Shown piece by piece: positions 20,783 to 35,897 of a stretch of 35,995 nucleotides of DNA. The position numbers and the translations under genes were made by a program. Under the pieces are notes generated by a model, which saw only the letters and a list, made by a program, of their open reading frames with translations, ran no database searches and was not told where the DNA came from. This DNA comes from Candidatus Roizmanbacteria bacterium RIFCSPHIGHO2_02_FULL_37_13b. Lineage in GTDB: Bacteria; Patescibacteriota; Microgenomatia; UBA1406; HO2-37-13b. Every line of letters starts with the position of its first letter. Positions within the stretch are counted from its first letter, which is position 1. The stretch spans positions 1 to 35,995 of the forward strand of contig MFZK01000005.1 in the NCBI GenBank assembly GCA_001789395.1, in the 5' to 3' direction.

Positions 20783-20853
20783 GCGGGATTAGTACAGTGG
20801 TAGTATGCCACCTTCCCAAGGTGGAGACGCGAGTTCGATTCTCGTATCCCGCT
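20783..20853 (+). tRNA. tRNA-Gly(CCC)
   Basis: A cloverleaf with acceptor GCGGGAT/ATCCCGC, anticodon stem CCACC/GGTGG and loop TTCCCAA (anticodon CCC), and T-arm with GTTCGATTC. The discriminator is T and CCA is not encoded. A TATACT box at 20757-20762 may be its -10 element. The last 22 bases from the T-loop on, including two bases past the discriminator, are duplicated downstream. Confidence 0.94.
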
Positions 20854-20939
20854 CAAGCGTTTGTATTACTGATGAGCAGATGAAGATGAGAGCCGAAGGT
20901 CCTTCGTTTACGAAGGATTCGATTCTCGTATCCCGCTCA
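20834..20939 (+). repeat. Direct repeat of the tRNA-Gly 3' end
   Basis: The 22-base segment from TTCGATTCTC to CCCGCTCA occurs at 20834-20855 (in tRNA-Gly) and again, identical, at 20918-20939. The second copy has no acceptor 5' strand or D-arm, so it is not a tRNA. Just before it a small hairpin CCTTCG/CGAAGG is found (about 20900-20915). The layout resembles the paired att sites left when an element integrates into a tRNA 3' end, but only 62 bases lie between the copies. Confidence 0.75.
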
Positions 20940-21773: not shown

Positions 21774-22908
21774 CTCGCGATTGATAAAGAAGAAAGAATA
21801 AAATTAAGATAAAAGAATTGAGAAATACATTATCAAATAATGATGCGACTAATATCAAGATCATTAATGTCTGAGATACATTGTCACCTCTTTTAAATAG
21901 ATCCAATAACCATTTAAGAAAGATCAAAAATCCTGCCATTCCAGTTGAGGCTAATATAATTATGTAGCTTGAAGCAAATCCAAAGGTTGCATGACTGGGT
22001 ATAATAGATTTTTCTTGATTTTTAACGTATCCTATACGATTGTAACCTACCCCTATAATTGGAGATTTAGAAAACACTTGTAATCCCGATCTAATGTCTT
22101 CAACTCTTGATGATATGGTAAAAAGCCGTTCTAATTTAACACCTTCACCAAATGGTCTTGGCAAAAGCCAAATCAATCCAAAGAATATGATCATCGAAAT
22201 AATTAGGTAACTTGTTTTTAATTTGTTTCTAAAATAATAAAGACATGCGATTATTGAGCTGAGATATGTAATTCGAGAATATGTCAACATCATTAATGCA
22301 AAAACTCCGACAAATCCAAATATTAATAATTTTTTCTTGAGGGATTTTGGCGTTTTAATGGCTAGACTTATTAGAATTAAAATTACCATAGAAAATATAA
22401 GTCCAGAAATCGTAGTATCAAAGAATGTGGCAAAGACGCGCGATTGATGTGGATCCCATCCCAAATAATATAGATTTCGTAAGTTTGAATAAACAAAATA
22501 TTGTATTAATCCAAAAAAAATGATTAAGCTTGTAAATATGTAAAAACCTTGCTTAAGTATATGTTCTGACTGTTTTTCATGACGACGCCAGTAAGATAGA
22601 GAGATAAAAAATAACAGATACATCACTAGTCTAGACAGATACAAAAGTCCAACGCTATTTTGTAAAAGGCTGAAATTCCAAAAACTAATGATTAGTGAAA
22701 TCGAAAAAATGGCAATCAACAGAAGTATTAGCTTTTCTTTAATTATGAATAAATATAACCTTTGTCGATATCTTAAAAAAGCAAATAATATAAAAGAAAA
22801 AATGATCACGTCGTGAAGATTGATATTAATTACTTGGTTAAGGAAAGAAATTCGAGCCAATTGTCCAAATGAAAGAGCAATAAATAGTAAATATATTAAC
22901 CAGTTCAT
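21748..22908 (-). CDS. O-antigen ligase/polymerase-like membrane protein
   Basis: A 386-residue protein with about ten membrane helices. The Wzy_C/O-antigen-ligase pattern is visible: a large loop near residues 250-320 containing FSKSPIIGVGYNRIGYV and then SHATFGFASSYIIILASTGMAGFLIF, where the family usually has HN before the next helix. Such proteins polymerise or ligate lipid-linked glycans at the outer membrane face. It ends the glycan cluster and overlaps the upstream glycosyltransferase by ATGA (4 bases). Its stop lies 26 bases inside the convergent upstream gene, so no terminator fits between them. Polymerase versus ligase cannot be told apart here. Confidence 0.8.
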   Translation of the reverse strand: MNWLIYLLFIALSFGQLARISFLNQVININLHDVIIFSFILFAFLRYRQRLYLFIIKEKLILLLIAIFSISLIISFWNFSLLQNSVGLLYLSRLVMYLLFFISLSYWRRHEKQSEHILKQGFYIFTSLIIFFGLIQYFVYSNLRNLYYLGWDPHQSRVFATFFDTTISGLIFSMVILILISLAIKTPKSLKKKLLIFGFVGVFALMMLTYSRITYLSSIIACLYYFRNKLKTSYLIISMIIFFGLIWLLPRPFGEGVKLERLFTISSRVEDIRSGLQVFSKSPIIGVGYNRIGYVKNQEKSIIPSHATFGFASSYIIILASTGMAGFLIFLKWLLDLFKRGDNVSQTLMILILVASLFDNVFLNSFILILFFLLYQSRVNLSRRLL

Positions 22909-23717
22909 TTTGAATGATGCATCATATAAAGCTTAGATTGAACAAGAAATGAATGAAAGCTCATGAAAAATGCATAGACAAAACCGGCAGCACCCTCTAA
23001 AAATCCAAAACGCAACAGATAGTTATACCAAAATTTGAAGAATGGAAAAAATATGATCTTGAGCGCATTTCCTTGTTGACCTGTCTTAAATAATTCTTCG
23101 GCGCGACTACTGCTGTACTTATTAATTTGTTCCAGAAAAATTGCCACTGTAGGGTGCGGACGATGAATCAAATAAGAATCTAAAAATCCTGTTTTTTTTT
23201 CGGTTTGAAATGATTCATGGATCGCACCTATCCATTTACCGGATCCTTTTTTATACAAACGTATAAAACCTGTGTGAGCGGCCTTATAGACTTCTCCAAA
23301 CCGTAGCTCTCTCCCCCACCATATATCACGTCGTTTAATGTAATATATCTCGGTTTTTCCTTCTTCATCGTATACACCTATGTCATCCCGAGCTTGTCGA
23401 GGGATCTCGTCAAATGTTTTATATGTTTTCACGATCTCCTGAATCTCCTCTTTTAGCGCATTTGTGATCACCTCATCCGCATCAATATGAAGTATCCAAT
23501 CCCCTTTGGCTTGTATGTCTGCAAAATTTCGTTGTTTGGAGAAATCGTTGTTTAACGGATGAGCTATCACTCTGACGCCCATTTCTTTTGCGATTTTGAC
23601 CGTGTTATCTGTTGAATCATCATCAATGATCAGAGTTTCATCAGCAAAAGAAACTGATTCAATTGTTTTTTTTATAGATTCGTTTTCGTTTTTAGCTAGA
23701 ATGATTACTGAAAGCAT
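22905..23717 (-). CDS. Family 2 glycosyltransferase with a repeat-derived insert
   Basis: A 270-residue GT-A enzyme of the WaaE/KdtX-like group. N-terminal LSVIILAKNENESIKKTIESV, ETLIIDDDSTDNT, and the metal-binding HIDADE (about 77-82) are typical. The C-terminal part has GFIRLYKKGSGKWIGAIHESF and hydrophobic segments. Residues about 99-120, including FDEIPRQARDDIGVYDEEG, have no counterpart in the family, which passes directly from the helix after DADE to the YYIKRRDIWWGR segment. The insert is encoded by a palindromic repeat (23381-23422) and keeps the frame. The gene lies downstream of the GT4 gene and overlaps the membrane-protein gene by 4 bases. Confidence 0.88.
   Translation of the reverse strand: MLSVIILAKNENESIKKTIESVSFADETLIIDDDSTDNTVKIAKEMGVRVIAHPLNNDFSKQRNFADIQAKGDWILHIDADEVITNALKEEIQEIVKTYKTFDEIPRQARDDIGVYDEEGKTEIYYIKRRDIWWGRELRFGEVYKAAHTGFIRLYKKGSGKWIGAIHESFQTEKKTGFLDSYLIHRPHPTVAIFLEQINKYSSSRAEELFKTGQQGNALKIIFFPFFKFWYNYLLRFGFLEGAAGFVYAFFMSFHSFLVQSKLYMMHHSK
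23381..23422. repeat. Palindromic repeat element inside a glycosyltransferase gene
   Basis: TGTCATCCCGAGCTTGTCGA and the following GGGATCTCGTCAAATG match the element at 31684-31731. ATCTCGTCAAATGTTTTA is identical in both. The core folds as CCCTCGA against TCGGG with one bulge. It is read in frame in the minus-strand gene. Confidence 0.85.
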
Positions 23718-31683: not shown

Positions 31684-31785
31684 TGTCATCGCGAGGCCGA
31701 AGGCCGTGGCGATCTCGTCAAATGTTTTAGATTTGACTAGATTGCTTCGTCCAAATACCAGACGGCTCTGGACCTCGCAATGACA
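31684..31785. repeat. Two palindromic repeat elements facing each other
   Basis: The left copy (31684-31731) reads TGTCATCGCGAGG at its outer end and GATCTCGTCAAATG at its inner end. The right copy, inverted (about 31731-31785), reads CCTCGCAATGACA at its outer end and ATTGCTTCGTCC inside. The pair can fold into one large foldback. It contains an ATG (31780) in frame with the RTX gene that is unlikely to be the true start. Confidence 0.85.
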
Positions 31786-31791
31786 TTAAGT

Positions 31792-32880
31792 ATGAAAAAT
31801 AGAATTATTAGAATAACAATAGGTTTTTTGCTTTTAAGCGGACTGATATTTTTCAATAAGGACAAATTTGATTTTTTAAAACCATCCATTGTCGAGGCAG
31901 TTGGGGACTTAGTCATCAGCTGGGGAGTAGCAGAAGGTAATCCCATATTCAATGTATCAAATATGGCACCGGGACAAAGTGAGCAGCGACAGGTTTCAGT
32001 CCAAAATAATGCATCGACGAGTAGACAAGTCGCTATCCGTGGATTAAAAAAGACAGAAACCGGAGGTTTGGCTCAAGCTTTTACAATTGTAATTAATGAT
32101 GGCACAAATGATCTATATGGCGGTACAAGTCCGACAGGTCCAAAGACTATTCAGCAATTTTTTGATGAAAGTGCTTTTGCCAATGGAATTCCTCTCTCAA
32201 CTTTAGTTTCAGGCGCGACAGTGAATTATAAGATCACGGCAAAGTTCAAAGAGGAATCAGGTAATGAATATCAAAATAAGCAACTTATATTTGATCTGAA
32301 AATCGGTATTAATGTCGATATGCCTCCGGAATGTCTGACAATGGTATTTGACAATGTAATATATGGGACTGAGAAAAAGGATAACTTAAGGGGAGGCCCG
32401 GGGACAAACTTAATCATTGGACTTGGAGGTAATGATTTAATTAATGGCGGGAGCGGTAAAGACTGCATCTTGGGTGGTAATGGCACTGATATTATTTTTG
32501 GCAATGAAAATGATGATGTCATCGATGGCGGAGCCAATAACGATATTTTATATGGCGGTGTCGGAAACGATGTCATCTATGGCGGGCTGGGCATCGACAC
32601 AATAAGAGGCGATGATGGTAATGATAAATTATATGGAGACGCGGCCGCAGATACGATAAATGGATGTAATGGTGATGATACAATCTATGGCGGAATCGGC
32701 GATGATTATATTACCGGAGATATGGGAAATGACACTATCTATGGTGAAGGAGGCAATGACAGGCTTTACGGAAATCCGAATAATGATTATTTGGATGGCG
32801 GAATCGGCAGTAATATCACTCATGGAGGAACAGAAATTGATACCTGCCTAAACGGAACAAAAATCCAGTGTGAGCTGTAG
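31792..32880 (+). CDS. TasA-like/RTX calcium-repeat secreted protein
   Basis: A 362-residue protein with an N-terminal membrane/signal helix (about 4-22). A beta-rich TasA/CalY-like domain (about 38-175) follows, with FNVSNMAPGQSEQRQVSVQNNAS and YQNKQLIFDLKIGI. About fifteen RTX-type nonapeptides (GGxGxDxhx) then run from about 190 to 340, for example GGVGNDVIY and GEGGNDRLY, which fold into a calcium-binding beta-roll. A short Cys-containing tail ends it. RTX proteins usually leave through type I secretion; here the N-terminal hydrophobic segment suggests the Sec route. I use ATG 31792, since ATG 31780 lies in the repeat. Palindromic repeats lie on both sides. Confidence 0.85.
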   Translation: MKNRIIRITIGFLLLSGLIFFNKDKFDFLKPSIVEAVGDLVISWGVAEGNPIFNVSNMAPGQSEQRQVSVQNNASTSRQVAIRGLKKTETGGLAQAFTIVINDGTNDLYGGTSPTGPKTIQQFFDESAFANGIPLSTLVSGATVNYKITAKFKEESGNEYQNKQLIFDLKIGINVDMPPECLTMVFDNVIYGTEKKDNLRGGPGTNLIIGLGGNDLINGGSGKDCILGGNGTDIIFGNENDDVIDGGANNDILYGGVGNDVIYGGLGIDTIRGDDGNDKLYGDAAADTINGCNGDDTIYGGIGDDYITGDMGNDTIYGEGGNDRLYGNPNNDYLDGGIGSNITHGGTEIDTCLNGTKIQCEL

Positions 32881-32886
32881 ATATAT

Positions 32887-32937
32887 TGTCATTGCGAGGA
32901 TCCGCTAACCAGCGGAGACGAAGCAATCGCATCAAAT
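32887..32937. repeat. Palindromic repeat element downstream of the RTX gene
   Basis: TGTCATTGCGAGGATCCGCT, a short GCGG-closed loop, then GACGAAGCAATCGC and ATCAAAT. It is the same family as 31684-31785 and 35856-35897, with a different central hairpin (CCGCT/AGCGG). It starts six bases after the RTX stop. Confidence 0.85.
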
Positions 32938-35855: not shown

Positions 35856-35897
35856 TGTCATTGCGAGGAACGGAGTGACGAAGCAATCTAATCAATT
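35856..35897. repeat. Palindromic repeat element near the right edge
   Basis: TGTCATTGCGAGGAACGGAG, then TGACGAAGCAATCTAATCAA. It is the least decayed copy in the window of the family seen at 23381, 31684 and 32887. The centre folds as CATTGCG..CGAAGCAAT. Confidence 0.88.

Follow-up and report, generated by a model that had tools for sequence, protein, structure and literature searches.

The segment at positions 23381-23424 of the window, which is one whole contig (C5; 35,995 nucleotides) of the 23-contig, 1.16 Mb draft genome of Candidatus Roizmanbacteria bacterium RIFCSPHIGHO2_02_FULL_37_13b, is very probably a truncated palindromic repeat of the dispersed, mobile-looking REP type that entered a presumed surface loop of a GT-2 glycosyltransferase in frame and is now part of the protein. 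Relatives appear to have acquired other repeats of this kind independently in the same flexible loop, and selfish DNA would thus be a recurrent source of new stretches of protein.

The probable insert and its host gene

The original prediction linked the in-gene stretch to a non-coding element starting at 31684, and the comparison bears this out. The sequence of the segment, TGTCATCCCGAGCTTGTCGAGGGATCTCGTCAAATGTTTTATAT, contains the 19-mer GATCTCGTCAAATGTTTTA, which is found in exact copies at 23403-23421 and 31711-31729. The match to 31711-31732 extends to 22 nt with one mismatch (95%), and the two elements begin in parallel, with GTCATCCCGAG at 23382 resembling GTCATCGCGAG at 31685. The chance expectation for the 19-mer is 0.02 matches in shuffled sequences, even with 3 mismatches allowed.

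The 270-residue ORF stays open across the segment, as had been claimed: an element of 42-45 nt encodes about 14 residues, YKTFDEIPRQARDD, and a product peptide across the insert would include TFDEIPRQARDD. The addition of about 20 residues proposed at first holds for the loop as a whole, which exceeds that of the near relative L050 by ~20 residues, but not for the element itself. The loop is shorter in both repeat-free near relatives, L050 and L087. Similarly, the description of the insert as a captured palindrome stands as regards its REP origin but not its structure. The captured piece matches just half of the 31684 element, which is bipartite, and because it comprises a single REP arm with a portion of the central spacer it folds poorly: on its own the fold is no better than that of shuffled sequences (z -1.0), with an imperfect stem of 5 bp and mismatches. 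Conservation of the encoded peptide IPRQARDD in homologues would have spoken for an old protein feature; the peptide occurs in 0 of 124 other GT-2 homologues. It is therefore not ancestral, and an ancestral conserved peptide is ruled out.

The ORF matches Pfam PF00535 (E 6e-19), and the top structural matches of its AlphaFold model are SunS/ThuS-type and other GT-2 enzymes. The model, based on a 107-sequence alignment, has a mean pLDDT of 94 and a core pLDDT of about 98. Its main weak stretch, with pLDDT values of 65 and 57 in the blocks covering residues 101-120, coincides with the insert. The modelling, proposed as a check of whether the insert lies on the surface, thus places it in a low-confidence loop of an otherwise confidently predicted fold, as would be expected if the loop were exposed.

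Table 1. The glycosyltransferase gene and REP-type repeats of the window, and REP-like DNA in the same loop of GT-2 homologues.
Feature	Position or locus	Strand	Description
GT-2 glycosyltransferase gene	22905..23717	-	270 aa; GT-A-like fold; DADE motif at residues 79-82
REP half-element (very probable capture)	23381..23424	+	TGTC-tagged arm and part of central spacer; minus-strand reading YKTFDEIPRQARDD
Complete bipartite palindromic element	31684..31785	.	Non-coding; REP arm, GTCAAAT..ATTTGAC spacer, REP arm
Single REP arm, same family, intergenic	32887..32929	+	GTCATTGCGAGG...GACGAAGCAATC
Single REP arm, same family, intergenic	35856..35888	+	GTCATTGCGAGGAACGGAGTGACGAAGCAATC
Loop REP-like DNA	L051, L083; L085 (differs by one base)		GATCCTGAAACAAGTTCAGGATGAC
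Loop REP-like DNA	L116, L117		GATTCCCGCATTCGCGGGAATGAC
Loop REP-like DNA	L081		GATTCCGAACCAAGTTCGGAATGAC
Loop REP-like DNA	L099		GATCCCGCCACAGGCGGGATGAC

The repeat family and its copies in other enzymes

The two GTCAT-tagged arms of the complete element face each other around the spacer, and as single-stranded DNA the element folds strongly (-24.7 kcal/mol; z -5.31 against shuffles). The motif GTCATYSCGAG occurs at 18 sites in the genome and at none in the control read backwards. In sampled genome stretches totalling about 435 kb, the window included, a stringent detector gave 17 credible REPs (reversed control, 0), 15 of them outside ORFs of at least 120 aa. The remaining 2 of 17 lie inside real ORFs, two further weak hits having been discounted by eye; this intra-ORF fraction is only a rough guide, since the detector passes over the window copy as well as arms of the looser GTCATTGCGAG type.

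The family shares several features of the CGTC-tagged REP superfamily. A CGTC or TGTC tag directly followed by a stem starting with AT is present in the window copy (TGTCATCCC), in the 31684 copy (TTTGTCATCGC) and in two copies within the RpiB gene (TGTCATCC and TGTCATGC), and the repeats are multicopy and mostly intergenic. Stems of 8-9 bp with loops of 4-5 nt are seen in copies elsewhere in the genome such as GTCATTCCCGCGAAGGCGGGAAT; the stem of the window copy has 5 bp and mismatches. The window copy has no CCA-like unpaired tail and runs on with CTC after GGGAT; other genomic copies run on with CTA, CCA or CTC.

Two further observations concern the window. In the stretch 31774-31800, the 31684 element contributes at its end an ATG (31780) that lies in frame with, and upstream of, the likely start (31792) of an RTX-like protein with GGxGND repeats. 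An identical 22-nt repeat, TTCGATTCTCGTATCCCGCTCA, is found at 20834-20855 and 20918-20939; one copy is the 3' end of a tRNA-Gly, and the second lies 84 nt downstream.

A search of unrelated proteins, proposed as a check of the capture, recovered in-frame repeats of the same kind in four more enzymes of the genome: GlyA, ArgS, RpiB and a second GT-2 glycosyltransferase, with gene identities resting on NCBIfam and PDB matches. The GlyA insert is a complete two-armed element of 39 residues (region TNVIANDSEVISSHLK) that is exactly missing from three relatives (G005, G002 and G004) and from the genome's own paralogue. In ArgS, GTCATTGCGAGG...GAAGCAATC reads VIARSETTKQS, and the same loop holds three different REPs, one each in this genome (G000) and in the relatives G002 and G006. 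RpiB (L221:16500-17015; contig C22:116500-117015 of G000) carries, in frame, a facing pair of REPs that differ from each other and encode VILNSIQD and MPKQIRHD; in its relatives the length varies at the same place, without clear REPs. The second GT-2 enzyme has VIARSEATKQS at the loop equivalent to that of the window gene. Copies of the GTCATTGCGA type are common to GlyA, ArgS and the GT-2 paralogue, which places the same repeat in unrelated proteins. Together with the absence of the peptide from GT-2 homologues, these insertions support the proposed parallel with in-frame capture of Rickettsia palindromic elements (RPE) in another lineage. A second odd segment in the N-terminal part of ArgS (L037/L245), PPTLRKNEVTRNVSTPQPPTLRRIPTLRRETGERRG, consists of repeated CCCCGACGTTGAGG units, and relatives are without it.

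Recurrence at one loop and its possible causes

We drew GT-2 homologues from the order of this genome (71 of 83 genomes) and from its class, giving a set of 125; a scan of named genomes yielded only distant GT-2 proteins of Paenibacillus. In ~15 of the set different REP-like repeats, that is, GTCA[T/C]-tagged hairpins, occupy the same loop in both orientations. This loop connects the helix that follows the DADE motif to the strand YYIKRRD. The resulting peptides include ILKQVQDD, VIPAKAGI, DSRIRGND, IPNQVRND, DPATGGMT and MLKQVQHD. Three elements were found in the loop of L052 and two in that of L084, with further ones in other homologues. A detector for GTCA[T/C]-tagged hairpins gave about 30 hits in the family, 24 of them at residues 90-119, against 2 in the reversed controls. 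Repeats fall in the loop in 16 genes and elsewhere in 5, while the loop makes up 5.4% of residues (binomial P 9e-17); the 16 include a probable false positive (L138), and a degenerate extra case (L098) enters the tree count but not that of the detector. An unbiased scan recovered 20 hairpins in the GT-2 genes where codon shuffles predict 6.6, and these concentrate at residues 90-119 and in another loop, close to residue 46. The palindromic inserts of the residue ~46 loop (L084, L091, L104, L122 and L141) are of other types, for example ATGTAGGGAACAAAAATATTTGTTCCCTACAT. Genomes with and without an insert do not differ significantly in their richness in REP-like sites (P 0.16).

We considered whether a single ancestral invasion of the loop, followed by REP-into-REP replacement through recombination, produced the later diversity, so that the recurrence would reflect one founding insertion. 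The occurrence of different REPs at one loop in the related genomes G000, G002, G005 and G006 is in keeping with this scenario, as are tandem or nested REPs within single genes (L052, L081, L084 and L116). However, many relatives with short, repeat-free loops are interspersed in the tree. With the loop columns left out of the gene tree, the repeat-bearing rows require 12 changes of state, at least 5 of them forced by well-supported branches; overall support is modest and gains are not distinguishable from losses. The GlyA repeat, moreover, is a plain new insertion with empty sites in relatives. A single founding event is thus unlikely.

The strong clustering at one GT-2 loop and one ArgS loop could also arise if the repeats inserted site-specifically, favouring a DNA target at the GT-2 position rather than passing a filter of protein tolerance. 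We regard this as quite improbable: the insertion points lie several codons apart between homologues, other palindromes cluster in the loop near residue 46, AT-rich non-REP sequence lengthens the same loops too, and the GlyA and RpiB targets are unrelated. We think that protein tolerance, and not DNA target choice, accounts for the recurrence at the same loop, because the insertion points shift by several codons and the second loop appears to behave alike. Finally, an ordinary variable loop peptide resembling a repeat by chance, an idea to which the very variable loop length among homologues lends itself, has a negligible probability and is rejected on the 19-nt exact match with its shuffle expectation and on the same pattern in many orthologues against the 2 hits of the reversed control.

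An in-frame insertion filtered by protein tolerance suggests the following course of events. The insertion would have taken place after the split of the lineage from the sampled relatives. Its source would be a GTCAT-tagged hairpin repeat of the kind that often has two arms facing around a palindromic spacer, probably a copy like that at 31684 with a different arm. REP copies would move or be copied, most of them persisting between genes, and the few that land in frame, free of stops and in tolerant loops would survive; such survival is possible because the arms are open in several reading frames. The recurrence would then reflect tolerance of insertions at the loop and removal of others by selection, and the GT-2 enzyme with the insert is probably made and still active.

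The natural candidate mover would be a transposase of the Y1/HUH (RAYT-like) type that works on hairpins in single-stranded DNA; linkage in this genome gives it no support. The surroundings (about 1.5 kb) of the nine Y1_Tnp (RAYT-like) genes of the genome (L106-L114) contain only 3 REP-like sites, scattered over 2 of the 9 loci. As REPs of the window type do not consistently flank the nine genes, we ruled against these as linked mobilisers. Several Y1_Tnp genes are flanked by short gene-specific hairpins of their own (such as aatcccgggattg, ccaaccctcgtggttgg and taacctcgggagttacgcag), which face each other or repeat around the gene.

Relation to known repeats and biological meaning

Palindromic elements that insert in frame are known above all from Rickettsia. 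Like the RPE, especially RPE-4 and RPE-6, the repeats described here are dispersed and palindromic, lie in frame within protein genes and add short segments to the products; insertions in real genes with homologues lacking them were found for GT-2, GlyA, ArgS and RpiB. They differ from the RPE in their lineage and in the capture of several distinct repeats at one loop of orthologues. CGTC-tagged REPs have been described in Proteobacteria, Chlorobi, Bacteroidetes, Spirochaetes and Thermotogae, some of them inside ORFs (Di Nocera et al. 2013, PMC3733652). The same study equates the intragenic CGTC-tagged REPs of R. conorii with RPE-4 and RPE-6, so the RPE are the right class for comparison, the likeness lying in the kind of element. 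According to that study, too, recB of two Xanthomonas species carries REPs that differ from each other but lie at nearly the same site.

The repeats in this genome resemble CGTC-tagged REPs in the tag followed by an AT-starting hairpin, in occurring singly and as inverted pairs, and in being mostly intergenic and sometimes intra-ORF. Unlike those, the GTCATTGCGAGG-type arms have longer, mismatched stems, the window copy is without the CCA-like tail, and the host is outside the five phyla of PMC3733652. The inverted arms around a spacer at 31684-31785, together with the presence of Y1_Tnp genes, also recall REPINs (RAYT-associated doublets). REPINs usually have a RAYT gene linked to them, whereas the Y1_Tnp genes here carry other flanking hairpins. 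In the open-access literature we found no report on point of REPs in CPR/Patescibacteria, the group that small genome size and gene content suggest for this bacterium, nor any of recurrent uptake of repeats into a single loop in many orthologous genes.

In-frame REP capture is already known as a kind of event, and its recurrence at the same loop across orthologues is the less familiar part. The present case extends the process to another, small-genome lineage and to housekeeping enzymes. It also comes with its own replicate, since one and the same loop holds different repeats in different orthologues of one enzyme; the tolerance of the loop can therefore be tested directly against an acquired usefulness of the segments. 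In this small-genome group a few permissive loops of core enzymes (GT-2, ArgS and perhaps RpiB) might, as we tentatively propose, serve as standing landing sites that repeatedly acquire, replace and diversify REP segments. If this is true, REP capture would be a regular source of loop variation and not a rare accident.
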